From the NCBI GenBank assembly GCA_024220505.1, contig JAKZZE010000025.1:806001-870000 (forward strand): DNA of 64,000 nucleotides, written 5' to 3'. This document shows positions 31,327 through 64,000 of this stretch, piece by piece. The notes under the pieces were generated by a model. That model made no database searches. It was not told the DNA's origin and was given only the letters and a program-made list of their open reading frames with translations. This DNA comes from Rhizopus arrhizus (Eukaryota > Mucoromycota > Mucoromycetes > Mucorales > Rhizopodaceae). Position 1 is the stretch's first letter. Each line of letters starts with the position of its first letter. The translations under genes and the position numbers were made by a program.

Positions 31327-31397
31327 TGGTCACTACGAGGGTCGAACTCGCGACCTTGGCGTTATTAGCACCACGCTCTAACCAACTGAGCTAGACC
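31327..31397 (-). tRNA. tRNA-Ile (anticodon AAU), 5' end broken by LINE insertion
   Basis: On the minus strand: TAGCTCAGTTGG (box A, D-arm), anticodon loop CTAATAA with AAT, GCGAGTTCGACCCTCGT (T-arm, box B) and 3' acceptor AGTGACC plus A. The 5' acceptor should be GGTCACT but only GGTC lies before TAGCTCAG, followed outward by LINE sequence (31395 onward). Three pairing bases are therefore missing at the junction. Probably a damaged gene; whether residual GGTC:GACC pairing supports function is unknown. Confidence 0.85.
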
Positions 31398-31583
31398 TTT
31401 CTTTCGCTCTTCCGACCGTTACACAAGGTATAGTACGCGTAATCAACTTTGAACTCAAATATCTCTGCGAATACGATACATCCATCCACCGTTTTAACAC
31501 CAAAATAATCGTTGTATTTTTCTCTACAAACTATATTTTTTTCAACTCGATTGCTCTATTTTTCATCATTTTCGACATTTCCC

Positions 31584-32594
31584 ATGTCTCAACAATCTGG
31601 TTCCCCCATTTCGCTCATCTCGCAAGATGGAGTTGCAAATGTCAACATTACAAACCCTTCTGACATGCAACAAGCTTTGCAATATTTATTGCACAACTTC
31701 CAAACCCTCCAGCAACGTGTTTCAACACACGATGACTTGTTTGCTGAACTGACTGCTTTACGCAGTGAAAACGCTACTCTGAAGGCGAAAATCGCCTCAC
31801 TCGAATCTCAACTCTCCGCTGGCGCTGACGTCAACAGTTCTTCCGCTTTTTCCTCTTTGGCTTCCGACCAGGCTACCATACGTGCACCCCAAGATGCACC
31901 CCAAATGAACAAAGTAACCTATAGTGCTATTGCTGCCAAGGCTGCTGCTACTGCTACTGCTACTATCCCCTCTCGTCGCCCACCTAGCAAGAAGCGTAAG
32001 CTTGCTGCTAGTCGTACATTTATGCCAGTTGACCCTTCTGCTCCTCGTGGATTCGAGTACTTGTACTTGAATCGCAACCGCAAGCTGTCCCGTTCTGAAG
32101 TTCGCAGAAACCTCCGTTTGCTTGGTCTTGATCTTTCCCGTGTCTTGGACATCTGCTTTCCTGGCCCCAAGGTCATTGGCCTCTTGGTCCACGTTCAATA
32201 CAAAGAAGAGGTGATCTCTCTTCTATCCACAGCCAAGGTTCCGTTGGTTGACGGTTTTGATCCATTGGATCCTGTCAACTTGGCGGATCCTGAGCTCCAG
32301 CATCTTTCATCGGCTGACAAGGCTAATGAATGTGCTGAGCTCCAGTTCACTCGCTGCTCCCGTGCTCTCTCTCGTCTTGGTGCTGGCCGTGCTCACCTGG
32401 TGGGTCCCATAGGTAAGTACTTTTGTTCTAAGGGTTGGATCGATGACGACTCTTTGAGTCAGATTCTGTCCTCCCTCCCCCCTTCCTCATTTGCTTCTCG
32501 TGGTCGTGACCCAGGCGCTGCTTTCCGTGGTGACACGGTCATGTCAGATGCTTTGGTCTCTGATCCCGCTAGTGCTGGATCACACTCATTATGA
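31584..32594 (+). CDS. LINE ORF1 (coiled-coil, RNA-binding-like)
   Basis: 336 residues from ATG at 31584 (MSQQSGSPIS...). An in-frame ATG at 31512 lies in sequence conserved as 5' UTR among copies and is not preferred. Residues about 32-80 form a Leu-heptad coiled coil (LLHNFQTLQQRV... LRSENATLKAKIASLESQL), suggesting a trimer or oligomer as in other LINE ORF1 proteins. A basic KKRK nuclear-localisation-like stretch (about 133) follows an Ala/Thr-rich linker. A conserved region with RRM-like alternation (YLYLNRNRKLSRSEVRRNLR... GPKVIGLLVHVQYKEEVISLL) spans about 150-240. Likely a nucleic-acid chaperone in the retrotransposition particle. The stop TGA overlaps the ORF2 start. Confidence 0.88.
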   Translation: MSQQSGSPISLISQDGVANVNITNPSDMQQALQYLLHNFQTLQQRVSTHDDLFAELTALRSENATLKAKIASLESQLSAGADVNSSSAFSSLASDQATIRAPQDAPQMNKVTYSAIAAKAAATATATIPSRRPPSKKRKLAASRTFMPVDPSAPRGFEYLYLNRNRKLSRSEVRRNLRLLGLDLSRVLDICFPGPKVIGLLVHVQYKEEVISLLSTAKVPLVDGFDPLDPVNLADPELQHLSSADKANECAELQFTRCSRALSRLGAGRAHLVGPIGKYFCSKGWIDDDSLSQILSSLPPSSFASRGRDPGAAFRGDTVMSDALVSDPASAGSHSL

Positions 32595-35500
32595 GTGAGG
32601 TCCAACACCTTTCTATAAGCCTTTGGAACGCGAATGGTCTTCGGACCACGACCGTTCATGAAGTCCTGTCTCATTGTCTCTCCTCTACACTCCTTTTTAT
32701 CACCGAGACTTGGCTTCTTTCCCCTTCTCTCCTTCCTACAGACTGGATGCAATATCATGTGTATGGTGTTCCTGTACCTTCGGCCAACCGTGGTTCGATG
32801 GGTGTTACTGCTCTGGTCTCTCCGTCTTGTCCCTTTCCTGTCTCTCAACTTCCTTCAGCGAATCGGTATACCCTTTCGTTGAAGGTCGGACCGTTTCGCA
32901 TTCATTGTTTGTATGTTCCTCCTCCTCTTTCCAACTCTGAATTTATTAATGTACTTTCCTCCATCCCCTCCTTACCCAATACTTTCATTTGTGGCGACTT
33001 TAATGCTCGTCTTGGTGACCTCACTGGTGATGCATTGGTCTCTCCTCGTGGTGCTGCTATGGCTCGCTGGCTTGCTGATCGCTCCTTGACCGTTCTGAAC
33101 GGCCCACTGGCTCATGGTATTCCTACCTGGGTCGGGTTTCGTGATGATCGAGAGATGAGTAGCATCATTGACATGTTTCTAACAAACGCGTCATTGATGT
33201 CTCCTTGCCTTGACATCGCGTCTGACTTGTCTCTTGGTTCTGACCATCGTCTACTCACGTTGTCATTCTCATTTGCTCAGTCAAGTGCCTCTGAGTCTTC
33301 ATCTGATACTCCTGATTTCACTCTACATCCTCGTCGACTATGGAACTTGTCTCGCCTTGGTGAACCTGATCCATGTCAGCTGTATCAAGATACTTTTCAT
33401 TCGTCCTCTGCTCCTTTGCTTTCTCAACTGAAAAGGTTGGTTCAACACCCTCCTTCTTCACGTCCGCCAATTGACGACCTCAACGCGTCGCTCAACTCAA
33501 TCATCTACCGCTCTCTTGACTCTTCTGTCGGTGATCGTCCACCTCGTCCATCCCATTGGAAAAAGTACTGGACGCAACAACTTCAAAATGCTGCTGACTT
33601 CCGCAACAGGTGCTACCGTAGATGGCGTCGTGCCTTTGGTATTGACAAAGTCTATTGGTGGCATCAACACCAACAAGCAAATGTTTCCTTTCGTCAAGCT
33701 GTGGCCAATGCCAAACGTCTGTCCTGGCAAGCATTCTGCAAGTCCCTTGAGTCTGACTTTACTAAAGCCATCTCAAAAGTAAAGCAACTCAAACGTCGTC
33801 ACCTCACTTCATCCTCATTCACTCATCCTGATGGTCCGGCTACGGCAGTGGAAGTAATGGCTCGTCACTTGGCGTCTGTCTATGATGGTCACTTGCTTCC
33901 ATCTGTCCGTCCGCCTGCTCCTCCTGATCCGTCTTCTCTTGGTTTGCCCTTTGGTCCTCCTGGTTCGTCTCCTCTGGTTGTCTCCCCTGGTGCTGCTACT
34001 CATACTTCTACGTCTACTACTCATTCCACTCACTTCAATACATCCATATTCTCGTCTGTAACATTGGCTTTACTTATCGGTCAACTGCCTACGCGCAAAG
34101 CTCCTGGTGCTGATCACATCAAGGCCGAGATGCTCAAGCCGATCAGTACTGACCTGTCATTCCTTCTTTCCTGGTTCTTTACACTCTGCTGTCAATGGTC
34201 CTATGTTCCTTCTCTCTGGCGACATGCTCAAGTCTATCCTATCTTCAAGAAAGGTGATTCATCACTTCCCTCAAACTACCGTCCAATCTCACTCACATCT
34301 GTATTCCGCAAGCTACTTGAGCTGTCGCTCTCTCCATGGTTGTCCTCTGTCTCTCCTCCTCTTGACCTCGCTCAAGGTGGTTTCCGTCCTCGTCGATCTG
34401 CTCTTGATCAAGCCTTATGCCTTCATGAGCTGATGCAGTCTTATTATCGTCGCTCACATCGTTTTCCTGTGGTTGCATTCCTGGATATCAAGTCGGCCTA
34501 CGATACCGTCGACCGGCGTGTTATCTGGGATGCTCTCTCTCGCTCTGGTGCTGGTTCCTCTCCTTGTCTGCCTCTCTTGGTCCATCTCTTTGATGATGTC
34601 TCGGTGTCTGTCTTGGTGTCAAACCATTCTTCTGCTTCCTTCTCTCCTGTCACCGGTGTCTTGCAAGGTTCTGTTCTCAGTCCTCACTTGTACTCGGTGT
34701 ACATCAACACTCTTCCTGCTCTCCTTCGTCAAGTCGCTGCTCCTGCCACCCATTTGGTTCCTTCCACTGGTTCTGGTGATGCTGGTATGGTCCCAGTCAA
34801 CTCTCTCCTCTTTGCTGATGATGTCGCAGTCATTGGCTCGGCAAAGTCAATTAAAGAGATGCTCAAGCTCTGTGAAGAACACTCCCTGTCTCTTGGATAT
34901 CGCTGGAATCCTCTGAAGTGTGCGGTGCTCAACCACCCCACTTCCTCTTCATCGTCATCTGGTTCAACCCAACTAAAACTCTATGGTACTCCGCTTCCTT
35001 TGGTCGACAAGTTCGTATACCTTGGTATGCCTTTCGTCAAGACTGGTCTCTCTGCTGCTTCGGTGCTTCCTCTTCGTTCTCCTGGTGTTCTAAAGCTCAT
35101 GTCGATCCTCAATTTTATAGGTGTCAATCGTCAAGGCGTTTCTCTTCTGTTGTGTGCTCGGATCTATGCTACTTTTGTCCGTCCCAAGTTCGAATATGGT
35201 CTCGCTATCTCAAAGTTTACTGCAATTCAAGTCAAAGAAATAGAACGTCTTCAAGATCGCTGCCTTCGTATGATGGTAGGTGGTCATGCCACCTCCTCTA
35301 CGTTGGTCATCAAACATATGACAACCTTGCCGTCTATGCACCACCGCATAGATGTGCTTACAACTCGTTTCTGCCTTCGTGCTCGCTCGCTTCCTGGTTC
35401 TTGCCTGCTATCTCTGCTATCAACCACGCTACCTGTCTCACGTATCAAGGTCCATCTTGAAAAGAATCCGCTCTTCTTGGCTTTGCCTTCTCCTCCTCCG

Positions 35501-35995
35501 TCCTCCGATGCTCGGCTCAAGACCTTCTTTCGCCAGTATCGTGAGCGTCAAGTCACTTCACTCGTCACCTCCACTACCCAGGTTCTCTTACGCGCATGTC
35601 GCCCTGCTCTGGTGGTTGATCCCATCTTATACGTTCCTGCTACTCGTGCAGAACGCTCTCTCTTGGTTCGTTGGCGTCTTGGCTGGCTGCCAGGTAAGCC
35701 TGAAGACTGTCCTTGTGGCCGTGATCGTCGCTCTCGCCGTCACTTTCTCGAGTGCGATTTGATCCCGTCCTTCCTTTGGTCTGATCTACCTCGCTGTCCT
35801 CCTGGGTGCTATCCCATTGACTTTGCTCTTTCCTCGCTGCCCCTTGGTCGCTCAGCTCGCTGTCCTCCTTGGTGGTCTTCTCTCTTGTTGATGCTCTGGC
35901 ATATACAACGTCTGTGTCGTCCTGATAGCTTCTATGCTATTGACTCTTCTCCTGGTGCCTTATGGTATTCAAGTTCTTCTCGTAGCCCTGACTGA
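32591..35995 (+). CDS. LINE ORF2: AP-like endonuclease and reverse transcriptase
   Basis: 1134 residues. The N-terminal endonuclease (about 1-225) keeps WNANGL, ITETWL, GDFNARLGD, SIIDMF and GSDHRLL, so nicking of the target strand is expected to work. Reverse transcriptase: APGADHIKAEML (about 503), FKKGDSSLPSNYRPISL, GGFRPRRSALDQ, FLDIKSAYDTVDR, GVLQGSVLSPHLYSVYIN and LLFADDVAVIG (FADD about 740). The C-terminus carries a CCHC-type finger CPCGRDRRSRRHFLEC (about 1040). It should perform target-primed reverse transcription of the LINE, and of the SINEs that share its 3' end. The start ATG lies in the ATGA overlapping the ORF1 stop. Its Ser/Thr/Pro linker (about 430-490) differs from the other copies. 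No lesion seen. Confidence 0.95.
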   Translation: MSEVQHLSISLWNANGLRTTTVHEVLSHCLSSTLLFITETWLLSPSLLPTDWMQYHVYGVPVPSANRGSMGVTALVSPSCPFPVSQLPSANRYTLSLKVGPFRIHCLYVPPPLSNSEFINVLSSIPSLPNTFICGDFNARLGDLTGDALVSPRGAAMARWLADRSLTVLNGPLAHGIPTWVGFRDDREMSSIIDMFLTNASLMSPCLDIASDLSLGSDHRLLTLSFSFAQSSASESSSDTPDFTLHPRRLWNLSRLGEPDPCQLYQDTFHSSSAPLLSQLKRLVQHPPSSRPPIDDLNASLNSIIYRSLDSSVGDRPPRPSHWKKYWTQQLQNAADFRNRCYRRWRRAFGIDKVYWWHQHQQANVSFRQAVANAKRLSWQAFCKSLESDFTKAISKVKQLKRRHLTSSSFTHPDGPATAVEVMARHLASVYDGHLLPSVRPPAPPDPSSLGLPFGPPGSSPLVVSPGAATHTSTSTTHSTHFNTSIFSSVTLALLIGQLPTRKAPGADHIKAEMLKPISTDLSFLLSWFFTLCCQWSYVPSLWRHAQVYPIFKKGDSSLPSNYRPISLTSVFRKLLELSLSPWLSSVSPPLDLAQGGFRPRRSALDQALCLHELMQSYYRRSHRFPVVAFLDIKSAYDTVDRRVIWDALSRSGAGSSPCLPLLVHLFDDVSVSVLVSNHSSASFSPVTGVLQGSVLSPHLYSVYINTLPALLRQVAAPATHLVPSTGSGDAGMVPVNSLLFADDVAVIGSAKSIKEMLKLCEEHSLSLGYRWNPLKCAVLNHPTSSSSSSGSTQLKLYGTPLPLVDKFVYLGMPFVKTGLSAASVLPLRSPGVLKLMSILNFIGVNRQGVSLLLCARIYATFVRPKFEYGLAISKFTAIQVKEIERLQDRCLRMMVGGHATSSTLVIKHMTTLPSMHHRIDVLTTRFCLRARSLPGSCLLSLLSTTLPVSRIKVHLEKNPLFLALPSPPPSSDARLKTFFRQYRERQVTSLVTSTTQVLLRACRPALVVDPILYVPATRAERSLLVRWRLGWLPGKPEDCPCGRDRRSRRHFLECDLIPSFLWSDLPRCPPGCYPIDFALSSLPLGRSARCPPWWSSLLLMLWHIQRLCRPDSFYAIDSSPGALWYSSSSRSPD

Positions 35996-36274
35996 AATCC
36001 TTCTTTGTCTGTCTCCTACTGATCCCCCACGGAAGTAAAGCCATCAAAGTTCCTTACCGTTGGGTTGTGGCGGTAGGTCAGCTAAGTTGTGGAAGTAGGC
36101 AGCAAGTCTCATCTTTTGCTTTATCTTTTTTTGGAGTTTTTCTGTTTCTCAGGCTCCTTTTTTTGTACTTATTCTTATTCTTTGTACTTGAAGATGCAAT
36201 AATGACTTCTTAGTCGCCTGCAATATATCTTCTTATTAAATAAAAACAAAATCTTTAACCTGAGCTAAGCGACC

Positions 36275-36796
36275 AAGGTATGTGGAGATAGTGCAAATGG
36301 TTAGAGCGTCTGCCTATCATTCGGGAGGTTGCAAGTTCAACCCCTCGTATCCGCATATCTACCCTTTCCGCACTCTAACTGCATGTTCTCTTTCTGCGGT
36401 GCTTTAAGCACTGAATGATTTTGTCTTGTGTGTCGCGTTGAGCGACAGCTTTGTATCTGTTCGCCTTCCTTCCCTCCATTGTTGTTTGGTGTTGTGCCGC
36501 TTGATAACACCTGGTTTTAATGCCACAAGTTGCTTCGGTGGTATGAGGTGTTTGTTGATCGTTGTCTGTGCGTTGCCTGGATTCCCAGCCCCGGGATTAA
36601 AGAAGCACCGTTCTGTCTCTGCCTCAAGTCTTCGTCTATGGTTTCTGCTTCAAGATTGTAATTCGCTCCTTCCCCCATTCCCCCCTAATAACTTGTATGC
36701 TTTCCAGGATGTTCCTGTGGATTGCAATAATGATTTGTTAATCGCCTGCATATAATCCAATAAAATATAAAAATCTTTAACCTGAGCTAAGCGACC
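36275..36796 (+). mobile_element. SINE A (type 2 head)
   Basis: 522 bp directly after the LINE tail. Head: tRNA-like with GTGCAAATGGTTAGAGCG (box A region) and GGTTGCAAGTTCAACCCC (box B region). The body shares TCAAGTCTTCGTCT and several other blocks with the type 1 SINEs. The 3' part matches the LINE: GCAATAATG, hairpin GATT-TGTT-AATC (36732-36743), GCCTGCA, AATAAA and AATCTTTAACCTGAGCTAAGCGACC-type tail. Short open frames in it are not coding-like. Confidence 0.9.
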
Positions 36797-36853
36797 GGGG
36801 ATGTGGATGTAGCTCAGTCGGTAGAGCGTCTGACTATTATTGGTGTGGTCGCA

Positions 36854-39800
36854 CACTGCACCCAATCACCGTTATCCAAGTTGATAAAGTTGATCTTTTT
36901 TGATAGTGGTAATTCTATTAAATGAGTGAGAACTCGGATTTAAATGTTAGAAAGCTGATTTTTATATCAGAAGAAAGCTTGAAAAAATAGATTGTAAATC
37001 TATAAAAATAATCAAAAGTATATAATATGTTTGTTGAATAAAAAGACATTGTATTTTTTAAAAAAATAAATAATTTTCTGTTGTGCTACATGATGCCATA
37101 CAAGATTACAAATTGGGAAGACTATGCTTTTTCAACTTCAGTGCAATATTTTTTAACTTCAACAAAGATCGAAAACACAGTTCTATTGGCCTACAAGCTC
37201 GGAAATCCAAGTGATTGAGTCGTGGCGTTTTCTTTTCAAGCATTCTTCGGCTCTCATGTCGTATTTTACAAAAAAAAAAACTTTGTTTAATACAAAAGGA
37301 GATTTATTTTGGTTACTAATGAACAAAAGAAAAAAAAAAAAAAAGAAAGAGTAAAGAGGTACATATGAATAAGAGGGATGAAACTCTTATATAAGTGCAT
37401 AATATCGCTATAATAATAAGTATAAAAGTATGTGTTTATAAATTAGAACAAAAAAAAAGAATGTGAATATAGTAGAAAATTTAAAAGATTGAATAAAATA
37501 TATAAAAAAAAGAAGGATTCTTTTGGCTCTAAAGAAGTTAAACTTGTTTTAAAGCTGAAAAAGATATGTTTTAAATAGTAAGATCACGGCATAAAAAAGA
37601 CAGAGTATTTTTGATAATCATTTTTATTTTTTGAGAGTAAAGAAAAAAAAGGTGGCAACGGAATGAATGTCTATTATGCTACACGTCTTGAGATTTCTAT
37701 GAAAAGGTTAAAAAACAAGAGAAAAAGTATATTGTTACTGAGTACTTTTGAAAAAAAAAAAAAAAAGTTGCAATGTTGAAATTGTAAAAAAAAAAAAATT
37801 ACACTCCCAGCATTGACATTACAAAAGGAATCTCCATTCAATGTATTGTTTAAACTTGAATAAAAAAAAGGAGTGTTTTAAATTTGGGTTTTAAAAAAAA
37901 AGTACTTTAGAAATTTTTTCATTAAATAAAAGTGGACCAAATATGACGAAGGTGGAAAGCATCAAACAGAAATCTAAAATAAGATTCAAAGACCACAATA
38001 CAAACGGCAAACTGATTTTATCTGTAACCAAATCTAGAATGAAACAAAGGTAAAAAAAAAAAAAATTAAATTTAAAGATCTAAACACCGCTTTCATTTTT
38101 TTTTTGTTTTATTTATTTCACAAGTTTTTTTTTTTTTTTTTAAAGCAGCAAGTTGATTTCATCCAACTCTATTTCACCACCAAAAGCCCAAGCGATACTC
38201 TCTTCAGTTATATTTTCTTTTTTGATGAAGTCAGGAACAGGCAACGAGCATTTTCTTTGTATACGAGGAAGAAATTGGATGCTGCTATTTCCAGTTCTTT
38301 GCCTCTTTGCCTTGTCACTTGCTATCTGATCATCCAACAGCTTAAAAAATTCGGTACACTGAATATTGGATAATTAGTTGATTACGCTTAAAGAGATATT
38401 AATCAGACTTACTGCAGGTGATCTGTACTTTGGTACGCGAACTTCAAAATAATCAACTGTTTCCTTACACAAGACAGACATGCGTTCCTTTTCAGTAAAA
38501 GAAGTTATTCTATCTGGATTTTGCTCCAGAAGAATTTCCTCCACCTTGTCGATTGTATCATTGTTGTACATGTCTTCTTCTTCAGACATGTATTGCTGTT
38601 GAAGCAAATACTCACAGTTTGGATAACTTTCGTAAACGCCTTGATCCTTGTACTGCTCGTATATAGCCTTACGAGCTCTTGTTTTCTAAAAAACAAAGTT
38701 AGTTATGCGATTACAATATTTTATGTGGCACTTACAGCGCTTCTACGGGTGACTTTTGCTGCTTTTCGTTTTCTTATGAATTCTTCAACTGGATCTTCCT
38801 CCTCACCCGTGGATATTCCCGCCTTCTTTGTATAATATTGGCGCTCGAGGTACTTGCGCAAATCGCGGTTGTTGGTATTTTTAAATGAATAATGGCTATT
38901 CACATAATCCTGCAGTAATTTAAATACTCTTTGATTTTCAGCAGACTTCAGAGGCTTTTCAAGAACATATTGAGATGTCTGGGGTAGGTTGTTGTAGTGA
39001 TTTCTCACAGCATCCTATATTTCAGAGAAAAGCGATTAGTATATTTGTTTAAAATTGAATTTTAATGTTCTTACTTTGACAGCAGTAGCAATCGGCTTTG
39101 CGCCTTTGCCTGATTCTGCTTCAAGCTCATCGTATGCTTCTTTGAGCTTGCTGTATGCTACTTGCAAGGCCCGCTTTTCCTCTTGCTCTTTTCGAAGCAT
39201 CTCTTTCAAACCATCATTTTCTTTTCTTAGCTCCATATAAATGGAAAAAGAAAGAGATACTTCATCAGTCTCCATGTCTTCGGCTTCACGCATTCGCTTC
39301 TGAACATGAGTCATGGGAGGAAAGCCAGGCCTAGGATAGGCAAAGCTATCAGGAATGGCATCGCTTGAAGCAAGCTCAGGAGCAACATCACGAGAAGGAA
39401 CAGCGATTGGTTGCCCAACAAAGTTAGAGCCACGAGCATTGGCAGGAGCAGGGTTGAATTGAATACCACGATCAGACATATTGTTATAAGGGTAATTTGA
39501 AATAAAGATAAGTGAGCTTGGCATCAAAATTGAATCTTTCTTAAATATCATCGAGTTTACAATGAAACTCAGTCTTAGTATAGCAAAAAAAAAAAATATA
39601 AAAAGATTTCCTTTTCGAAATTTTGTTCCTTTTTTTTTCTTTCTGTTCAGCAATTTCCTTTTTCAACATCGCTCCGGTTATCGCAAGGTAAGTAAAAAAA
39701 AAAAAAAAAGAAAAAGAAAAAGAAAAAAAGAAAACTTTAGTTCTAACATGCTGTAGTAGACATTCATACATGTATCCATGGCTGCTGTAGTTCCTTTAGT

Positions 39801-50625: not shown

Positions 50626-50907
50626 AACCCTTCTTTGTCTGTCTCCTGCTGATCCCCCACGGAAGTAAAGCCATCAAAGTTCCTTGCCGTTGGGTTGTGA
50701 CAGTAGGTCAGCTAAGTTGTGGAAGTAGGCAGTCAATCTCATCTTTTTTCTTTATCTTTTTTTTGGAGTTTTTCTGTTTCTCAGGCTCCTTTTTTTGTAC
50801 TTATTCTTTTTCTTTGTACTGGAAGATGCAATAATGACTTTTTAGTCGCCTGCAATATATCTTCGTTATTTAATAAAAACAAAATCTTTAACCTGAGCTA
50901 AGCGACC

Positions 50908-51985: not shown

Positions 51986-52163
51986 GCTCTTCCGACCGTT
52001 ACACAAGGTATAGTACGCGCAATCAACTTTGAACCCAAATATCTCTGCGAATACGATACATCCATCCACCGTATTAACACCAAAATAATCGTCGTATTTT
52101 TCTCTACAAGTTATATTTTTTTCAACTCGATTGCTCTATTTTTCATCATTTTCGACATTTCCC

Positions 52164-53168: not shown

Positions 53169-56100
53169 GTGAGGTCCAACACCTTTCTATAAGCCTTTGG
53201 AACGCGAATGGTCTTCGGACCACGACCGTTCATGAGGTCTTGTCTCATTGTCTCTCATCTACACTCCTTTTTATCACCGAGACTTGGCTTCTTTCCCCTT
53301 CTCTCCTTCCTACTGACTGGATGCAGTATCATGTGTATGGTGTTCCTGTACCTTCGGCCAACCGTGGTTCGATGGGTGTTACTGCTCTGGTCTCTCCTTC
53401 TTGTCCCTTTCCTGTCTCTCAACTTCCTTCAGCGAATCGGTATACCCTTTCGTTGAAGGTCGGACCCTTTCGCCTTCATTGTTTGTATGTACCTCCTCCT
53501 CTTTCCAACTCTGATTTTATGAATGTACTCTCCTCCATTCCTTCGTTACCCAATACTTTTATTTGTGGCGACTTTAATGCTCGTCTTGGTGACCTCACTG
53601 GTGATGCATTGGTCTCTCCTCGTGGTGCTGCTATGGCTCGCTGGCTTGCTGATCGTTCCTTGACCGTTCTGAACGGCCCACTGGCTCATGGTATTCCTAC
53701 CTGGGTCGGGTTTCGTGATGATCGAGAGATGAGTAGCATCATTGACATGTTTTAACAAACGCGTCATTGATGTCTCCTCGACTTGACATCGCGTCTGACT
53801 TGTCTCTTGGTTCTGACCATCGTCTGCTCACGTTGTCTTTCTCATTTGCTCAGTCAAGTGCCTCTGAGTCTATGCCTGATACACCTGATGCTACTATTCA
53901 TCCTCGTCGACTATGGAACTTGTCTCGCCTTGGTGAACCTGATCCATGTCAGCTGTATCAAGATACATTTCGTTCGTCTTCTGCTCCTCTGCTTTCTCAA
54001 CTGAAGAGGTTGGTTCAACACCCTCCTTCTTCATGTCCGCCTATTGACGACCTCAACGCGTCGCTCAACAACATTATCTACAGCTCTCTTGACTCTTCTG
54101 TCGGTGATCGTCCTCCACGTCCATCCCATTGGAAAAAGTACTGGACACAACAACTGCAAGATGCTGCTGATTTCCGCAACAGATGTTACCGTAGATGGCG
54201 TCGTGCCTTTGGCATTGACAAAGTCTATTGGTGGCATCAACATCAACAAGCAAATACTTCTTTTCGTCAAGCTGTGGCCAATGCCAAGCGTCTCTCTTGG
54301 CAAGCATTTTGCAAGTCTCTCGAATCTGACTTTACTAAAGCCATCTCTAAAGTAAAGCAACTCAAACGACGACATCAGTCATCATCATCATTCACTCATC
54401 CTGATGGCCCGTCTAAGGCAGTGGAGGTAATGGCTAGTCACTTGGCTTCGGTCTTTGATGGCAGTCTTCTACCTTCCACTCGCCCATCACCACCTTCATC
54501 TCCATCCTCTCTTGGTTTGCCTCTTGGTCTTCATGGTTTGTCTCCTTCTGGTGCGTCTCCCTCTGGTTCTTCTGGTCCTCCTGGTTCTTCAAATTCTCTA
54601 TTCGCTCCTTTAACTATTCACATGTACATCGGTCAGCTCCCTACTCGTAAAGCTCCTGGTGCTGATCACATCAAGGCCGAGATGCTCAAGCCGATCAGTA
54701 TCGACCTCTCCCACTTGCTGTCTTGGTTCTTTTCCTTGTGCTGTCAATGGTCTTACGTTCCTTCTCTCTGGCGGCATGCTCAAGTCTATCCGATCTTCAA
54801 GAAAGGTGATCCTTCGCTGCCGTCCAACTATCGACCGATCTCACTGACCTCGGTGTTTAGAAAGCTCCTTGAGCTTAGTCTTGCTCCATGGCTCGCCTCG
54901 GTGTCGCCTCGACTTGATCTGGCTCAAGGTGGCTTTCGTCCTCGTCGCTCAGCTCTTGATCAAGCCTTATGTCTTCATGAGCTGATGCAGTCTTATTATC
55001 GTCGCTCACATCGGTTTCCTGTGGTTGCATTCCTAGATATCAAGTCGGCCTACGATACTGTCGACCGGCGTGTTATCTGGGATGCTCTCTCTCGCTCTGG
55101 TGCTGGTTCCTCTCCTTGTTTGCCTCTCTTGGTCCATCTCTTTGATGATGTCTCGGTGTCTGTCTTGGTGTCAAATCACTCGTCCGCTCCTTTTTCTCCT
55201 GTCACCGGTGTCTTGCAAGGTTCTGTTCTCAGTCCTCACTTGTACTCGGTGTACATCAATACATTACCTGCTCTCCTTCGTCAAGTCGCTGCTCCTGCCA
55301 CACATTTGGTTCCCTCCTCTGGTTCTGCTGATGCTGGTATGGTCCCAGTCAACTCTCTCCTCTTTGCTGACGATGTCGCAGTCATTGGCTCGGCAAAGTC
55401 AGTCAAAGAGATGCTCAAGCTCTGTGAAGAACACTCACTGTCTCTTGGTTATCGATGGAATCCTCTAAAGTGCGCGGTGCTCAACCACCCCACTTCCTCT
55501 TCATCATCATCTGGTTCAATCCAATTAAGCCTCTATGGTACTTCTCTGCCCTTGGTCGACAAGTTTGTATATCTTGGTATGCCGTTTGTCAAGACTGGTC
55601 TCTCCGCTGCTTCGGTGCTTTCTCTTCGTTCTCCTGGTGTCCTTCAACTGATGGGTATTCTCAACAAGATTGGTGTAAATCGTCAAGGCTTTTCTCTTCT
55701 TTTGTGTGCTCGGATCTACGCTACTTTTGTCCGTCCAAAATTCGAGTACGGCCTTGCTATCTCAAAGTTTTCTGCTGCTCAAGTCAAAGAAATCGATCGT
55801 TTACAAGACCGATGCCTTCGTATGATGGTTGGTGGTCATGCCACCTCCTCTACGCTGGTTATCAAACATATGACAACCTTGCCATCTATGCACCACCGCA
55901 TAGATGTGCTTACAACTCGTTTCTGCCTTCGTGCTCGCTCGCTTCCTGGTTCTTGCCTGCTGTCTCTGCTATCAACCACGCTACCTGTCTCACGTATCAA
56001 GGTCCATCTTGACAAGAATCCGCTCTTCTTGGCTTTGCCTTCTCCTCCTCCGTCCTCCGATGCTCGGCTCAAGACCTTCTTTCGCCAGTATCGTGAGCGT

Positions 56101-56547
56101 CAAGTCATCACTCTCGTCACCTCCACTACCCAGGTTCTATTACGCGCATGTCGCCCTGCTCTGGTGGTTGATCCCATCTTATACGTTCCTGCAACCCGTG
56201 CAGAACGCTCTCTCTTGGTTCGTTGGCGTCTTGGTTGGTTACCGGGTAAGCCTGAAAACTGTCCTTGTGGCCGTGATCGTCGCTCTCGCCGTCACTTCCT
56301 CGAGTGTGATTTGATCCCGTCCTTCCTTTGGTCCGATCTGCCTCGCTGTCCTCCTGGGACTTATCCCATAGACTTTGCTCTTTCCTCGTTGCCTCTTGGT
56401 CGCTCAGCTCGCTGTCCTCCTTGGTGGTCATCTCTCTTGTTGATGCTCTGGCATATTCAACGTCTCTGCCGTCCTGATAGCTTTTATGCTATTAACTCTT
56501 CTCCTGGTGCCTCATGGTATTCTCGTTCTTCTCGTCACCCTGACTGA
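53165..56547 (+). pseudogene. LINE ORF2 (copy 4), one-base deletion
   Basis: Open to 53755, where ATGTTTTAACAAACG lacks one T present in other copies (ATGTTTTTAAC or ATGTTTCTAAC), giving an immediate TAA within the endonuclease just after SIIDMF. The frame is open again to 56547 with the endonuclease SDHR motif, RT, FADD and C-terminal finger. Otherwise undamaged. Confidence 0.92.
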
Positions 56548-56826
56548 AACCCTTCTTTGTCTGTCTCCTGCTGATCCCCCACGGAAGTAAAGCCATCAAA
56601 GTTCCTTACCGTTGGGTTGTGACAGTAGGTCAGCTAAGCTGTGGAAGTAGGCAGTCAATCTGATCTTTTTTCTGTATCTTTTTTTGGAGTTTTTCTGTTT
56701 CTCAGGCTCCTTTTTTTGTATCTTATTCTCTTTTTTTGTACTTGAAGATGCAATAATGACTTTTTAGTCGCCTGCAAATATCTTCCTATTAAATAAAACA
56801 AAATCTTTAACCTGAGCTAAGCGACC

Positions 56827-58152
56827 TGTACAATCGTCAAGAAGCTTTGTCCGGATGTCTCTATATGATGAGGATCTTCCCTCAGTAGATGAGTTCATCT
56901 ATCTTGGTATCCCATTCTGCAGCAAAGGCATCTCTGTTCCGGCTATGGTCAAGCATCGCGCCTCTAGTACCTTGTTTGCCATGTCACAGCTCAACGCTAT
57001 TGGTCTCAACCGTAATGGTTTCTCTCTGCTGCTTTCTTCTCGTTTCTACGCTTCTTTCGTACGTCCGAAGCTTGAGTATGGCCTAGCCATTGCTCATCTT
57101 CTCAAGAAGGACTACACTGAGCTCAACCGAGTTCAGGATAGATGTCTTAGGATGATCGTTGGTGGTCATCGAACTTCGTCCACGGTAGTGCTTCGGCACA
57201 TTTGTAATCTACCATCCATGGATTTCCGTGCCGATACTCTGGTGCTCAAGTACTGTCTTCGTGTCTCTGGTCTTCCTGATGACTGTCTACTGTCACTCCT
57301 TGCATCCTCCGTTCCTTTGTCTCTTTTGTCTCGGCTCCGGCAGCGGCGTATCGTTCATGATTGCCCTCCGGATGCTTCATCATCTACATCTCGTCTCTCG
57401 TCTTGGTTGCGTCGGTATCGTCAAGAATGCTTTGATACCTTCCTCCAGTCCACCTCCCGGGTACTAATTCGTGCTTGTCGCCCAGTACTTCGGGTTGATC
57501 CCGTTCTCTTTGTTCCTGCCTCCCGTGCTGACCGGAGCCGCTTAGTGCGATGGCGCATGGGATGGCTTCCTGGTAAACCTCGTCCTTGCTCCTGTGGTCT
57601 TGGTCAAACAAGTCGCTCACACCTTGTGCTCTGTACAATGGTTCCTTCCTACCTTTGGTCTTGTCTTCCATTTCCACCGACTAGCTATGTGGGCAACCAC
57701 ATAGACTATGTCCTCAATCAACTGCCGCTGTCTCCTTCTGCTTCTTGTCCTCCGTTCTGGTCTGCTCTCTGCACAATTCTGTGGCATTTCGACAGGTTGT
57801 GCAATCCTGATGGTGACTACACCACTGATCCCACGCCAGGTCAAGTCTGGCTTGACAAGTCTCAGTCTCCCTCGTGAACAGCGCCCTGATTCTCCCTCTG
57901 GCTTCTTCCTCCCACTGCCAAACCATCTTCGTGCACGTTGCGGAGGGGACCAAGGAGCTGACGGGATTGCTTATTAACTTGCGCTTCTCTTCCACTGCTT
58001 CTACATTTTCACCTTTGATGTGTATCCGCTGGTGTTTTTTCGTTCTCTTGTTCCTTTGTCTCCGAGGTTATCACAGTTAATGATCCATTGATCGCTTGTA
58101 TTTTAACCTTTATTTTAATAAAAACATAAATTTTCGACTGAGCTAAGCGACC
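56827..58152 (+). mobile_element. LINE fragment of a divergent subfamily, 5'-truncated
   Basis: 1326 bp. It begins inside the ORF2 C-terminal region and ends with its own 3' UTR, hairpin GATC-CATT-GATC (58082-58093), AATAAA and CTGAGCTAAGCGACC. Apart from the hairpin context and tail, the 3' UTR is unlike the other LINEs. The 5' truncation is typical of incomplete reverse transcription. Confidence 0.92.
56828..57877 (+). pseudogene. LINE ORF2 C-terminal fragment (divergent subfamily)
   Basis: An open frame from the junction to TGA at 57875-57877, about 349 residues. It corresponds to the last third of ORF2: VDEFIYLGIPFCSKGIS, FYASFVRPKLEYGLAIAHL, RVQDRCLRMIVGGHRTSSTV and RADRSRLVRWRMGWLPGKP, then the finger CSCGLGQTSRSHLVLC. 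The RT catalytic region is missing. Clearly homologous to, but well diverged from, the main LINE family. Confidence 0.9.
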
Positions 58153-58341
58153 ACCTTTCTTTCGCTCTTCCGACCGTTACACAAGGTAGACGACGCGTAA
58201 TCAACTTTGAACTCGATTATCTCGCTCAATATAATACATCCATCAACCGTTTTAACATCAAAAAATTCGCTAATTTTTTCTCTACAAACCATATTTTTTT
58301 CAAGTTCATAACTCCTTTTTTTACAATTTTCGACATCTCCC

Positions 58342-59325
58342 ATGTCAGAACATTCCACCCTTGCTAATTTGCAAATGTCGACAAATGTCACAACTAATGT
58401 CGACATGCCCAACTCAACCGACCTCACACAAGCTGTGCAGTATCTATTAAATACTGTTCAAACCCTCCAACACCGTGTTACAACACACGACGACCTCTTG
58501 GCCGAACTTACTGCATTACGCAGTGAAAACTCTACATTGAAAGCCGAGATTGCTAATCTCAAAGCTCAATTGAATGCTGCATCTGGCGAATCTGTCGCTA
58601 AGGCTACTTTTTCTGTTCCTGTCTCTTCTGTCCCTACTTCTGTGGTCGAACAAGCGCCAACTACTGTCGGCCCTACTTATAGTGCTGTTGCCGCCCGTAA
58701 CACTTCCAAACCTGCGTCTAAAAAGCGTAAGCTTGCTGCCGGCCGAACTTTTCAACCTGTGGATCCTACTGCACCTCGTGGATTCGAGTACTTGTACTTG
58801 AACCGTAACCGTAAGCTCACCCGCGCTGAAGTCAGACGTAATCTACGTCTACTTGGTCTTGACCTCTCTCGTCTGCTCGATATCTGCTTCCCTGGCCCAA
58901 AGGTCATTGGTCTATTGGTGCACGTTCTTTACAAAGAAGAGGTGGTTTCTCTTCTTTCTGCTGCCAAGGTTCCGTTGGTTGACGGTTTTGATCCATTGGA
59001 TCCTGTCAACTTGGCGGATCCTGAGCTCCAGCATCTTTCATCGGCTGACAAGGCTAATGAATGTGCTGAGCTCCAGTTCACTCGCTGCTCCCGTGCTCTC
59101 TCTCGTCTTGGTGCTGGCCGTGCTCACCTGGTGGGTCCCATAGGTAAGTACTTTTCTTCCAAGGGTTGGCTTGATGAGGACTCTTTGAGTCAGATTCTGT
59201 CTTCCCTTCCCCCTTCCTCTTTTGCTTCTCGTGGTCGTGACCCAGGCGCTGCTTTCCGTGGTGACACGGTCATGTCAGATGCTTTGGTCTCTGATTCCGC
59301 TAGTGCTGGATCACACTCATTATGA
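58342..59325 (+). CDS. LINE ORF1 (copy 6, alternative N-terminus)
   Basis: 327 residues (MSEHSTLANLQMSTNVTT...), type 2 N-terminus like copy 3, with the coiled coil and KKRKLAAGRTF, then the common C-terminal domain. Open and overlapping ORF2 by ATGA at 59322-59325. Confidence 0.88.
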   Translation: MSEHSTLANLQMSTNVTTNVDMPNSTDLTQAVQYLLNTVQTLQHRVTTHDDLLAELTALRSENSTLKAEIANLKAQLNAASGESVAKATFSVPVSSVPTSVVEQAPTTVGPTYSAVAARNTSKPASKKRKLAAGRTFQPVDPTAPRGFEYLYLNRNRKLTRAEVRRNLRLLGLDLSRLLDICFPGPKVIGLLVHVLYKEEVVSLLSAAKVPLVDGFDPLDPVNLADPELQHLSSADKANECAELQFTRCSRALSRLGAGRAHLVGPIGKYFSSKGWLDEDSLSQILSSLPPSSFASRGRDPGAAFRGDTVMSDALVSDSASAGSHSL

Positions 59326-62300
59326 GTGAGGTCCAACACCTTTCTATAAGCCTTTGGAACGCGAATGGTCTTCGGACCACGACCGTTCATGAGGTCTTGT
59401 CTCATTGTCTCTCCTCTACTCTCCTTTTCATCACCGAGACTTGGCTTCTTTCCCCTTCTCTTCTTCCTACTGACTGGATGCAGTATCATGTGTATGGTGT
59501 TCCTGTACCTTCGGCCAACCGTGGTTCGATGGGTGTTACTGCCCTGGTCTCTCCTTCTTGTCCCTTTCCTATCTCTCAACTTCCTTCACCGAATCGGTAT
59601 ACCCTTTCGTTGAAGGTCGGACCCTTTCGCATTCATTGTTTGTATGTTCCTCCTCCTCTTTCCAACTCTGAATTTGTAAATGTACTTTCCTCCATCCCCT
59701 CCTTACCCAATACTTTTATTTGTGGCGACTTTAATGCTCGTCTTGGTGACCTCACTGGTGATGCATTGGTCTCTCCTCGTGGTGCTGCTATGGCTCGCTG
59801 GCTTGCTGATCGCTCCTTGACCGTTCTGAACGGCCCACTGGCTCATGGTATTCCTACCTGGGTCGGGTTTCGTGATGATCGAGAGATGAGTAGCATCATT
59901 GACATGTTTCTAACAAACGCGTCATTGATGTCTCCTCGCCTTGACATCGCGTCTGACTTGTCTCTTGGTTCTGACCATCGTCTGCTGACCTTGTCTTTCT
60001 CATTTGCTCAGTCAAGTGCCTCTGAGTCTTCATCTGAAACTACTGATGCTACCATTCATCCTCGTCGATTATGGAACTTGTCTCGCCTTGGTGAACCTGA
60101 TCCATGTCAATTGTATCAAGACACCTTTCGTTCGTCCTCTGCTCCTTTGCTGTCTCAACTGAAGAGGTTGGTTCAACACCCTCCTTCTTCACGTCCACCT
60201 ATTGACGACCTCAACGCGTCGCTCAACTCAATCATCTACCGCTCTCTTGACTCTTCTGTCGGTGATCGTCCTCCTCGTCCTTCACATTGGAAAAAGTACT
60301 GGACACAACAACTACAAGATGCTGCTGACTTCCGCAACAGGTGCTACCGTAGATGGCGTCGTGCCTTTGGCATCGACAAAGTCTATTGGTGGCATCAACA
60401 TCAACAAGCGAATACCTCTTTCCGTCAAGCTGTGGCCAATGCCAAACGTCTGTCCTGGCAAGCATTTTGCAAGTCTCTCGAATCTGACTTCACTAAAGCC
60501 GTTTCCAAAGTCAAGCAACTCAATCGACGACATCAGTCATCATCGTCGTTTTCCCATCCTGATGGTCCGTCTAAGGCAGTGGAGGTAATGGCTAGTCACT
60601 TGGCTTCGGTCTTTGATGGCAGTCTTCTACCTTCCACTCGCCCACCACCTCCATCATCTTCATCCTCTCTTGGTCTGCCTCTTGGTCTCCATGGTTCGTC
60701 TCCCTCTGGTTCGTCTCCTTCTGGTTCGTTTCCCTCTGGTTCCGCTGGTTCTCCTGGTCCTTCAAATTCTCTCTTCGCTCCTTTAACTATTCACATGTAC
60801 ATCGGTCAGCTCCCTACTCGTAAAGCTCCTGGTGCTGATCACATCAAGGCCGAGATGCTCAAGCCGATCAGTACTGACCTGTCATTCATTCTTTCCTGGT
60901 TCTTTACTCTATGCTATCAATGGTCCTATGTTCCTTCTCTGTGGCGACATGCTCAAGTTTATCCCATTTTCAAGAAAGGTGATTCATCACTTCCCTCAAA
61001 CTACCGTCCAATCTCACTCACATCTGTATTCCGCAAGCTACTTGAGCTGTCGCTGTCTCCATGGTTGTCCTCTGTCTCTCCTCCTCTTGACCTTGCTCAA
61101 GGTGGTTTCCGTCCTCGTCGATCTGCCCTGGATCAGGCTCTGTGCCTTCATGAACTAATACAGTCGTATTACCGTCGCTCTCATCGGTTTCCTGTGGTAG
61201 CATTCCTGGATATCAAGTCGGCCTACGACACCGTCGACCGGCGTGTTATCTGGGATGCTCTCTCTCGTTCTGGTGCTGGTTCCTCTCCTTGTCTGCCTCT
61301 CTTGGTTCATCTTTTTGATGATGTCTCGGTGTCTGTCCTGGTGTCAAACCATTCTTCTGCTGCTTTCTCTCCTGTCACCGGTGTCTTGCAAGGTTCTGTT
61401 CTCAGTCCTCACTTGTACTCGGTGTACATCAACACTCTTCCTTCCCTCCTTCGTCAAGTCGCTGCTCCTGCCACTCATTTGGTTCCCTCCTCTGGTTCTG
61501 CTAATGCTGGTATGGTCCCAGTGAACTCTCTCCTCTTTGCTGACGATGTCGCAGTCATTGGCTCGGCAAAGTCAGTCAAAGAGATGCTCAAGCTATGTGA
61601 AGAACACTCCCTGTCTCTTGGATATCGCTGGAATCCTCTGAAGTGCGCGGTGCTCAACCACCCCACTTCCTCTTCATCGTCATCTGGTTCAACCCAACTA
61701 AAGCTCTATGGTACTTCTCTCCCCTTGGTCGACAAGTTCGTATACCTTGGTATGCCTTTCGTCAAGACTGGTCTCTCTGCTGCTTCGGTGCTTTCTCTTC
61801 GTTCTCCTGGTGTGCTTCAACTAATGGGTATTCTCAACAAGATTGGCGTGAATCGTCAAGGCTTTTCTCTGCTCCTGTGTGCTCGCATCTATGCCACATT
61901 TGTCCGTCCAAAGTTCGAATATGGTCTTGCTATCTCAAAGTTTACTGCAACTCAAGTCAAAGAAATAGAACGTCTTCAAGACCGATGCCTTCGTATGATG
62001 GTTGGTGGTCATGCTACCTCCTCTACGCTGGTCATCAAGCACATGACAACATTGCCATCTATGCACCACCGCATAGATGTGCTTACAACTCGTTTCTGCC
62101 TTCGTGCCCGCTCTCTTCCTGGTTCTTGCCTGCTGTCTCTCCTGTCGTCAACGCTGCCTGTCTCTCGAATCAAGATCCATCTTGACAAGAATCAGCTCTT
62201 CCTGGCTCTGCCCTCTCCTCCTCCGTCCTCCGATGCTCGGCTCAAGACCTTCTTTCGCCAGTATCGTGAGCGTCAAGTCACATCCATTGTCACCTCCACT

Positions 62301-62720
62301 ACCCAGGTTCTCTTACGCGCATGTCGCCCTGCTCTGGTGGTTGATCCCATCTTATACGTTCCTGCAACCCGTGCAGAACGCTCTCTCTTGGTTCGTTGGC
62401 GTCTTGGTTGGTTGCCAGGCAAGCCTGAAGACTGTCCTTGTGGCCGTGATCGTCGCTCTCGCCGTCACTTTTTCGAGTGCGATCTTATCCCGTCTTTCCT
62501 TTGGTCTGACCTTCCTCGCTGTCCTCCTGGGACTTATCCCATTGACTTTGCTCTTTCCTCGTTGCCTCTTGGTCGCTCAGCTCGCTGTCCTCCTTGGTGG
62601 TCATCTCTCTTGTTGATGCTCTGGCATATTCAACGTCTCTGCCGTCCTGATAGCTTTTATGCTATTAACTCTTCTCCTGGTGCCTCATGGTATTCTCGTT
62701 CTTCTCGTCACCCTGACTGA
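59322..62720 (+). CDS. LINE ORF2 (copy 6): endonuclease and reverse transcriptase
   Basis: 1132 residues and uninterrupted. Endonuclease residues (ITETWL, GDFNAR, SDHRLL), RT (FLDIKSAYDTVDR, LLFADDVAV) and the finger CPCGRDRRSRRHFFEC are present. The linker has extra SPSGSSPSGSFPSGS repeats. The stretch SFILSWFFTLCYQ...GDSSLP matches the copy 1 type, unlike copies 2-4. Predicted functional. Confidence 0.95.
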   Translation: MSEVQHLSISLWNANGLRTTTVHEVLSHCLSSTLLFITETWLLSPSLLPTDWMQYHVYGVPVPSANRGSMGVTALVSPSCPFPISQLPSPNRYTLSLKVGPFRIHCLYVPPPLSNSEFVNVLSSIPSLPNTFICGDFNARLGDLTGDALVSPRGAAMARWLADRSLTVLNGPLAHGIPTWVGFRDDREMSSIIDMFLTNASLMSPRLDIASDLSLGSDHRLLTLSFSFAQSSASESSSETTDATIHPRRLWNLSRLGEPDPCQLYQDTFRSSSAPLLSQLKRLVQHPPSSRPPIDDLNASLNSIIYRSLDSSVGDRPPRPSHWKKYWTQQLQDAADFRNRCYRRWRRAFGIDKVYWWHQHQQANTSFRQAVANAKRLSWQAFCKSLESDFTKAVSKVKQLNRRHQSSSSFSHPDGPSKAVEVMASHLASVFDGSLLPSTRPPPPSSSSSLGLPLGLHGSSPSGSSPSGSFPSGSAGSPGPSNSLFAPLTIHMYIGQLPTRKAPGADHIKAEMLKPISTDLSFILSWFFTLCYQWSYVPSLWRHAQVYPIFKKGDSSLPSNYRPISLTSVFRKLLELSLSPWLSSVSPPLDLAQGGFRPRRSALDQALCLHELIQSYYRRSHRFPVVAFLDIKSAYDTVDRRVIWDALSRSGAGSSPCLPLLVHLFDDVSVSVLVSNHSSAAFSPVTGVLQGSVLSPHLYSVYINTLPSLLRQVAAPATHLVPSSGSANAGMVPVNSLLFADDVAVIGSAKSVKEMLKLCEEHSLSLGYRWNPLKCAVLNHPTSSSSSSGSTQLKLYGTSLPLVDKFVYLGMPFVKTGLSAASVLSLRSPGVLQLMGILNKIGVNRQGFSLLLCARIYATFVRPKFEYGLAISKFTATQVKEIERLQDRCLRMMVGGHATSSTLVIKHMTTLPSMHHRIDVLTTRFCLRARSLPGSCLLSLLSSTLPVSRIKIHLDKNQLFLALPSPPPSSDARLKTFFRQYRERQVTSIVTSTTQVLLRACRPALVVDPILYVPATRAERSLLVRWRLGWLPGKPEDCPCGRDRRSRRHFFECDLIPSFLWSDLPRCPPGTYPIDFALSSLPLGRSARCPPWWSSLLLMLWHIQRLCRPDSFYAINSSPGASWYSRSSRHPD

Positions 62721-63002
62721 AACCCTTCTTTGTCTGTCTCCTACTGATCCCCCACGGAAGTAAAGCCATCAAAGTTCCTTGCCGTTGGGTTGTGACAGTA
62801 GGTCAGCTAAGTTGTGGAAGTAGGCAGTCAATCTCATCTTTTGCTTTGTCTTTTTTTTGGAGTTTTTCTGTTTCTCAGGCTCCTTTTTTTGTATCTTATT
62901 CTCTTTTTTTTGTACTTGAAGATGCAATAATGACTTTTTAGTCGCCTGCAAAATATCTTCCTATTAAATAAAAACAAAATCTTTAACCTGAGCTAAGCGA
63001 CC

Positions 63003-64000
63003 ACCTTTCTTTCGCTCTTCCGACCGTTACACAAGGTATAGTACGCGTAATCAACTTTGAACTCAAATATCTCTGCGAATACGATACATCCATCCACCGT
63101 TTTAACACCAAAATAATCGTTGTATTTTTCTCTACAAACTATATTTTTTTCAACTCGATTGCTCTATTTTTCATCATTTTCGACATTTCCCATGTCTCAA
63201 CAATCTGGTTCCCCCATTTCGCTCATCTCGCAAGATGGAGTTGCAAATGTCAACATTACAAACCCTTCTGACATGCAACAAGCTTTGCAATATTTATTGC
63301 ACAACTTCCAAACCCTCCAGCAACGTGTTTCAACACACGATGACTTGTTTGCTGAACTGACTGCTTTACGCAGTGAAAACGCTACTCTGAAGGCGAAAAT
63401 CGCCTCACTCGAATCTCAACTCTCCGCTGGCGCTGACGTCAACAGTTCTTCCGCTTTTTCCTCTTTGGCTTCCGACCAGGCTACCATACGTGCACCCCAA
63501 GATGCACCCCAAATGAACAAAGTAACCTATAGTGCTATTGCTGCCAAGGCTGCTGCTACTGCTACTGCTACTATCCCCTCTCGTCGCCCACCTAGCAAGA
63601 AGCGTAAGCTTGCTGCTAGTCGTACATTTATGCCAGTTGACCCTTCTGCTCCTCGTGGATTCGAGTACTTGTACTTGAATCGCAACCGCAAGCTGTCCCG
63701 TTCTGAAGTTCGCAGAAACCTCCGTTTGCTTGGTCTTGATCTTTCCCGTGTCTTGGACATCTGCTTTCCTGGCCCCAAGGTCATTGGCCTCTTGGTCCAC
63801 GTTCAATACAAAGAAGAGGTGATCTCTCTTCTATCCACAGCCAAGGTTCCGTTGGTTGACGGTTTTGATCCATTGGATCCTGTCAACTTGGCGGATCCTG
63901 AGCTCCAGCATCTTTCATCGGCTGACAAGGCTAATGAATGTGCTGAGCTCCAGTTCACTCGCTGCTCCCGTGCTCTCTCTCGTCTTGGTGCTGGCCGTGC
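63003..64000 (+). mobile_element. LINE copy 7, 5' end only (window edge)
   Basis: Starts ACCTTTCTTTCGCTC after the copy 6 tail. Over all 998 bases visible I see no difference from copy 1 (31395-32392), making this the most similar pair in the window. The remainder lies beyond the window. Confidence 0.93.
63192..64000 (+). CDS. LINE ORF1 (copy 7), partial
   Basis: First 269 codons of a type 1 ORF1 (MSQQSGSPIS...), open to the window edge. It includes the coiled coil, KKRK motif and RRM-like region. Same sequence as copy 1 as far as can be seen. Confidence 0.88.
   Translation, partial: MSQQSGSPISLISQDGVANVNITNPSDMQQALQYLLHNFQTLQQRVSTHDDLFAELTALRSENATLKAKIASLESQLSAGADVNSSSAFSSLASDQATIRAPQDAPQMNKVTYSAIAAKAAATATATIPSRRPPSKKRKLAASRTFMPVDPSAPRGFEYLYLNRNRKLSRSEVRRNLRLLGLDLSRVLDICFPGPKVIGLLVHVQYKEEVISLLSTAKVPLVDGFDPLDPVNLADPELQHLSSADKANECAELQFTRCSRALSRLGAGR

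Follow-up and report, generated by a model that had tools for sequence, protein, structure and literature searches.

Why long and short interspersed elements (LINEs and SINEs) should follow one another head to tail from a transfer RNA (tRNA) gene is the question raised by a 64,000-nt stretch of Rhizopus arrhizus DNA (contig JAKZZE010000025.1; C18:806001-870000 in the genome searched, which comprises 50.26 Mb in 41 contigs). In this stretch, hereafter the window, such an array starts at a tRNA-Ile gene (31.3 kb) and continues past the window end. The answer, held here with high confidence, is that site-specific LINEs of the apurinic endonuclease (APE) type, together with SINEs, insert into tRNA genes, duplicate tRNA nt 1-14, restore the gene and build arrays. 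The tail found after the verified elements is local tRNA nt 1-14 at an exact position; the arrays, the intact tRNAs and a 3' hairpin common to the elements are equally direct observations. In each verified case the tail reads as a 14-bp target-site duplication, being the reverse complement of nt 1-14 of the local tRNA.

All ten complete element 3' ends in the window terminate in the 15-mer CTGAGCTAAGCGACC, which closes five LINE-1, one LINE-2 and four SINE copies. No extra copy of the 15-mer occurs in the window, even at two or fewer mismatches (shuffle mean 0.04), and a LINE or SINE starts at the base immediately adjacent to each of the ten tails, one of these followers (56827) being a 5'-truncated LINE-2. 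The sequence-only reading had described these ten ends (six LINE, four SINE), the adjoining of the next element and a tRNA-Ile gene at the beginning of the array, and all three descriptions are borne out, the tRNA being located by Rfam at 31327-31397 on the minus strand (44.8 bits). The match between tail and tRNA that it proposed is real; its figure of 15 of 17 positions, however, came from an inferred sequence, and intact genes give 15/15 at the 5' end. These intact tRNA-Ile genes (nine loci elsewhere in the genome, 74/74 identical, called tRNA-Ile(aat) by ARAGORN) read ...CCAACTGAGCTAAGCGACC. ARAGORN called no tRNA in the window because the window copy is damaged, 7 of its 74 nt being mismatched at the 5' end; the damaged junction is CTGAGCTA joined to GACCTTTC, where other loci have CTGAGCTAAGCGACC joined to ACCTTTC.

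A genome-wide search for the Ile 15-mer returned 95 exact occurrences, with none for the reversed-pattern control: 81 follow a LINE-1 or SINE end, five follow a LINE-2 end and nine belong to intact tRNA-Ile genes, at their 5' ends. The 86 Ile-type tails were found by exact match and are hence identical by construction; all of them are followed by another LINE or SINE, as evident from patterns in 79 cases and from alignment in seven, mostly truncated, cases.

The uniformity of the ten window tails, and the occurrence of the 86 exact-match tails after LINE-1, LINE-2 and SINE ends alike, would suit the earlier view that the tail is carried by the element, its RNA encoding the tail and pairing with the target; an Ile tail lying beyond an Ala tail on contig C41 would suit it as well. 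This view is highly improbable, however, as SINE-A, SINE-B and LINE-1 end in the local tRNA sequence at Ala sites, and SINE-A does so at Pro also. Among the 40 LINE-1 ends listed of 80 candidates, 34 adjoin the Ile 15-mer and six adjoin an Ala 15-mer, CTGAGCTACATCCCC (two on C23 and one each on C34, C5, C17 and C41). The six are 95-100% like the window LINE-1 over 250 nt, and one of them matches the last 250 nt of the window copy at 100% and is 94.5% alike over 1,400 nt. The Ala-type 15-mer, a leading C followed by TGAGCTACATCCCC, occurs 20 times in the genome, in 20/20 cases after a LINE-1 or SINE end, and tRNA-Ala(AGC) genes at three loci read CCATT joined to TGAGCTACATCCCC, abutting a SINE-A, a truncated SINE-A and a truncated LINE-1. 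Between Ile and Ala sites, SINE-A is 96.5% alike over 520 nt and SINE-B 97.4% over 499 nt. At a tRNA-Pro(AGG) gene, SINE-A is 98-99% like the window copy in the two terminal stretches compared, of 115 nt each, and its tail is TAAACCAAGAAGCC.

LINE-2, LINE-3 and LINE-4, only 42-51% like LINE-1 in open reading frame 2 (ORF2), obey the local-tRNA rule too, which further argues against an encoded tail. The LINE-4 pattern gave 14 matches, comprising 13 element ends with five different tails and one unrelated match; six of eight presumed LINE-4 heads display tRNA-Phe(GAA), tRNA-Lys(TTT) or tRNA-Met(CAT) whose nt 1-14 equal the element's tail. LINE-3 follows the rule at tRNA-Pro and also ends in several further tRNA-like tails, for which the matching tRNA genes were not fetched. 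An element-encoded tail is thus refuted for the copies examined, since the tails change with the target and the element ends stay alike. In the search for LINE 3' ends, the listing comprised 40 of 85 candidates, for the most part other LINEs matching more weakly, and 14 of these were followed. Loose tail patterns (305 matches vs 177 in the reversed control) served only to choose places, and a second loose pattern (10 matches vs 18 in the control) was not used as evidence. Judged from these sequences, targeting extends beyond tRNA-Ile to Ala, Pro, Phe, Lys and Met. The proposal of the sequence-only reading that insertion is directed to tRNA genes agrees with the verified tails, which are local tRNA nt 1-14.

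The length of the duplication is set by the base preceding the tail. At Ala sites the element keeps a C where the target has T (20/20 tails), and LINE-4 carries A in place of the target's C (7/7 tails); a 15-bp duplication was therefore rejected and cut to 14 bp. In LINE-1 and the SINEs the element itself supplies the first C of the 15-mer; LINE-1 and most SINE copies finish in ...TTTAACC, LINE-4 in ...TTTAACA.

When the verified targets (Ile, Ala, Phe, Lys, two Met and Pro) are aligned at the cut, they have in common TRGYTYA^RN at tRNA positions 8-16, the cut following A14. This motif is the A box of RNA polymerase III (Pol III) genes. The far edge of the duplication is mature tRNA +1, given a standard 7-bp acceptor stem; ARAGORN places the tRNA end one base further at some loci. 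The element points away from the tRNA, 5' end to 5' end, and the tRNA is complete after insertion.

In the proposed mechanism, the endonuclease would nick the tRNA-sense strand in the A box, between A14 and N15 (TRGYTYA^RN), and the nicked 3' end would prime reverse transcription of the element RNA. The opposite strand would be opened at mature tRNA +1, 14 bp from the nick, and fill-in would copy tRNA nt 1-14 to either side of the element. The duplicate on the side of the tRNA body would restore the complete gene, and that at the element 3' end would be the tail. As the proximal duplicate keeps the tRNA whole, the site could be used again, and repeated insertions into it would yield head-to-tail arrays that begin at the tRNA; the earlier suggestion that each insertion re-creates its own target is upheld to this extent, as is its use to account for the head-to-tail growth. 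The order of the cuts, target-primed reverse transcription and the endonuclease, rather than TFIIIC or TFIIIB, as the chooser of the site are what we infer.

The A box is bound by TFIIIC. Every verified target is a tRNA gene cut inside this box, as would be expected if A-box-bound TFIIIC, or else TFIIIB, directed the element to its site in the manner of Dictyostelium TRE5; such guidance by Pol III factors is conceivable yet doubtful, for the cut position does not vary by a single base among the Ile, Ala, Phe, Lys, Met and Pro targets, whereas TRE5 uses a window of 40-54 bp (PMC5911963, in the portion consulted). Under choice by the endonuclease, the rule would read the most conserved part of the tRNA gene, so that one enzyme could reach many sites.

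The LINE-1 ORF2 protein combines an apurinic-like endonuclease with a reverse transcriptase (PF14529, 3.5e-10; PF00078, 2.7e-21; both over cut-off); PF03372 lies slightly below its cut-off (22.9 vs 24.5 bits), and RNase H gave no match in ORF2 at E 0.001. On this predicted domain content, the array LINEs are classed as APE-type retrotransposons without long terminal repeats (LTRs). The nearest named proteins are from Rhizopus, namely R. stolonifer (88% over 99% of ORF2), R. delemar (93% over 66%) and R. arrhizus (94% over 64%); the PDB relatives named as LINEs are of the L1 ORF2 and R2 types only. The ORF2 of LINE-3 is 51% identical to that of LINE-1 over 830 aa, and that of LINE-4 42% over 869 aa.

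A SINE sharing the 3' end of a LINE is the usual sign of borrowing its machinery. SINE-A, SINE-B and LINE-1 have a terminal sequence in common, including the hairpin GCAATAATGAY...RTCGCCTGC; in its outer stem SINE-A and LINE-1 differ in sequence with pairing kept, and LINE-2 folds alike. The likeness to the LINE 3' end is 84% over 38 nt in SINE-A and 79% over 58 nt in SINE-B, and the SINE head is A/B-box-like as judged by eye only. Both are accordingly classed as putative LINE-dependent SINEs borrowing the LINE 3' end.

The copies of LINE-1, LINE-3 and LINE-4 all begin ACYTTTCTTTCGCTYTT, two LINE-4 copies being off by one base, and this common start persists despite the low ORF2 likeness of LINE-3 and LINE-4 to LINE-1 (51% and 42%). 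As ACYTTTCTTTCGCTYTT becomes the 5' flank of the tRNA, it may be under selection for Pol III transcription.

The units of the window array stand in the order LINE-1, SINE-B, SINE-A (split), LINE-1, LINE-1, SINE-A, SINE-B, LINE-1, LINE-2 (truncated), LINE-1, LINE-1, as follows.

31327..31393, minus strand: tRNA-Ile(AAT), 67/74 nt, heading the array, with a changed 5' end where the LINE adjoins (Rfam; intact copies by ARAGORN)
31395..36259, plus strand: LINE-1 copy W1, with stop-to-stop frames ORF1 (361 aa) and ORF2 (1140 aa)
36260..36274, plus strand: element C and 14-bp target-site duplication TGAGCTAAGCGACC
36275..36781, plus strand: SINE-B
36782..36796, plus strand: element C and 14-bp duplication
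36797..41189, plus strand: SINE-A, interrupted by 3.86 kb of another element, with a 6-bp overlap at the break
41190..41204, plus strand: element C and 14-bp duplication
41205..46052, plus strand: LINE-1 copy W2, two open frames
46053..46067, plus strand: element C and 14-bp duplication
46068..50892, plus strand: LINE-1 copy W3, 12 nt short at the 5' end, ORF2 N-terminus disrupted
50893..50907, plus strand: element C and 14-bp duplication
50908..51434, plus strand: SINE-A, unbroken, its head tRNA-like by eye, its 3' hairpin resembling that of the LINE
51435..51449, plus strand: element C and 14-bp duplication
51450..51970, plus strand: SINE-B
51971..51985, plus strand: element C and 14-bp duplication
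51986..56811, plus strand: LINE-1 copy W4, 12 nt short at the 5' end, ORF2 split
56812..56826, plus strand: element C and 14-bp duplication
56827..58137, plus strand: LINE-2, 5'-truncated, ORF2 part with 49.6% aa identity to LINE-1
58138..58152, plus strand: 15-mer tail after LINE-2, its first C from either element or target
58153..62987, plus strand: LINE-1 copy W5, two open frames, ORF2 of 1138 aa with APE endonuclease and reverse transcriptase
62988..63002, plus strand: element C and 14-bp duplication
63003..64000, plus strand: LINE-1 copy W6, extending beyond the window

Beyond the window, more tails occur on the contig, up to 1.2 kb from its end. The foreign element inside SINE-A (3.86 kb, with the 6-bp overlap) occupies 36854-40712.

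That the arrays grew for the most part through unequal crossing-over, or through tandem duplication of one founder unit, has evidence at particular loci: the C3 and C14 arrays open with the same 161-162-nt LINE-2 fragment and the same bases beside the tRNA, so that the two are not independent, and C25 carries a 1,179-bp perfect inverted repeat. It is an improbable general explanation, as the five full window LINEs are mutually just 87-94% alike with mosaic similarity, the 5' junctions vary in length, some having one additional base or a short run and others being truncated, and LINE-1, LINE-2, SINE-A and SINE-B alternate irregularly. Repeated insertion therefore fits the arrays better than the copying of one unit, although some loci are clearly duplicated. 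Several arrays run to contig ends (C12, C14, C18), which might be taken for an assembly artefact or collapse; but the junction rule holds on different contigs, at over ten loci that have a tRNA head, and at a single LINE-4 insertion on C2 whose two junctions were both read, leaving this explanation hardly any probability.

Certain observations weigh against insertion into tRNA genes as the whole account. None of the Ile tails (0/86) meets a unique flank, so that the oldest end of the Ile arrays is never seen. No exact 15-mer occurs between the last tail of the C3:1791-1803 kb array and the contig end 6.1 kb off, and thus no intact tRNA-Ile head is found for this array, in a stretch that was not read through. 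Two LINE-4 heads at guessed places (L141 and L142) are without a tRNA, and 2 to ~9 extra bases stand between the tRNA and the element at four LINE-4 heads (L136, L138-L140) and one LINE-3 (L146). On C41 roughly the length of one LINE separates an Ala tail from the Ile tail beyond it (the middle not being read throughout), which indicates that a tail can travel. This mixed array (C41:1963427-1968306) presents an Ala-type tail, nine odd bases, apparently one LINE-1 and an Ile-type tail; it would be accounted for if a read-through dimer had been mobilised or if arrays had recombined with each other.

Occupancy was assessed for the sampled tRNA-Ile and tRNA-Pro genes, the tRNA family search having scored 63 of 2,878 candidates. 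The tRNA-Ile query gave 11 matches, namely nine identical genes (74/74), the damaged window copy (67 nt) and an 85% match that ARAGORN calls tRNA-Val. Eight of the ten tRNA-Ile(AAT) genes are occupied, one by inference: in seven, LINE-1 or LINE-2 is joined at the tRNA start (in the window with a small deletion), and the gene at C24:212 kb, with eight bases like the SINE-B start, then LTR-like sequence and tails further on, is the one so counted. The other two, on C25, show no LINE-1, LINE-2, SINE-A or SINE-B start, one flank having been aligned and both starting alike. They match the C9 gene and its tRNA-side flank at 96% over 153 bp including the tRNA; a full filled/empty pair (C25/C9) was also sought, but the 7 kb covered contained nothing at the distal end of the C9 array that corresponds to the 5' flank on C25. 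The 1,179-bp perfect inverted repeat at C25:412700-420400 contains both of these element-free genes.

The start of tRNA-Pro(AGG) is occupied in 7/7 sampled genes, by two LINE-3 copies (one after ~9 extra bases), one SINE-A and, in four, a further sequence whose head is tRNA-like by eye and which also follows a LINE-3 tail at C8:1214 kb. A large LINE-3 array stands at a tRNA-Pro gene from C8:1174229 to ~1226000, with at least eight units by 3'-end matches. At seven loci, repeats beginning TGAC (TGACAAAGTCGG... and TGACAGTACCC...) start 8-11 bp from the tail or tRNA start, some of them within the first bases of a SINE or LINE; they may be LTR elements of the Ty3-like kind that have accumulated at these tRNA genes too.

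Comparison with known systems draws on the consulted portions of the cited papers. In Drosophila, R1 arrays are separated by a 14-bp 28S duplication, and new copies have been proposed to enter the duplication that lies 5' of a resident R1 (PMC2718515). The present elements resemble R1 as site-specific LINEs with a 14-bp target-site duplication between array units and with variable 5' junctions carrying extra bases (PMC2718515). R1, however, resides in 28S ribosomal RNA genes of arthropods, and no such insertion is seen here, the verified targets being tRNA genes; the Rhizopus LINEs enter the A box of many of these, have SINE partners and leave the tRNA whole.

Dictyostelium TRE5 and TRE3 are likewise APE-type LINEs at tRNA genes, and NLTR-A of D. 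purpureum sits upstream of the mature tRNA by 2-6 bp (PMC5911963, PMC5006619). TRE5 inserts 40-54 bp upstream and ends in poly(A), whereas here the junction is at the tRNA start and the end is TTTAACC; NLTR-A has an RNase H domain downstream of the reverse transcriptase, of which none was found in LINE-1 ORF2; and here the duplication covers tRNA nt 1-14. NeSL-1_TV (tRNA-Pro), LIN15_SM (tRNA-Arg) and LIN25_SM (tRNA-Glu) are also LINEs specific for tRNA genes, but they are relatives of the NeSL clade, whose restriction-like endonuclease differs from the apurinic-like one here (PMC4640811). Some Dada families cut the tRNA A box (TAGCTC), yet they are DDE DNA transposons with 6-7-bp duplications (PMC3706591). 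In the Rhizopus oryzae 99-880 assembly, LINEs make up 3.78%, and tRNA co-localisation is given for Ty3-like LTR elements (PMC2699053). One close protein homologue comes from this strain, and its LINEs are possibly the same elements as those described here.

The array logic is known from Drosophila R1, and the fungal clade of APE-type A-box LINEs with SINE partners appears to be a new variation on it; the open-access literature searched, apart from Figure S1 of PMC2699053, yielded neither A-box-specific LINEs nor such LINE/SINE arrays in fungi. More speculatively, and with less than even likelihood, the clade might be Mucorales-wide, with one A-box rule serving many isoacceptors and with element 5' ends acting as tRNA flanks selected for Pol III transcription, which would couple the element to tRNA supply. 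If so, element 5' ends would be the standing 5' flanks of essential tRNA genes (7/7 tRNA-Pro(AGG) and 8/10 tRNA-Ile(AAT), one inferred), raising the question whether fungal tRNA supply depends on transposon-derived 5' flanks. The system would represent a parasitism of essential genes without breakage, in which the gene is cut inside and rebuilt via the duplication, and would provide a naturally occurring enzyme that cuts the tRNA A box, along with an easily testable case of the evolution of LINE target choice.

Elsewhere in the window, 8003-9499 holds a reverse-transcriptase fragment of a different LINE, outside the array family as judged by eye, and 9981-10437 contains three copies of a 154-bp unit with 98% matches.

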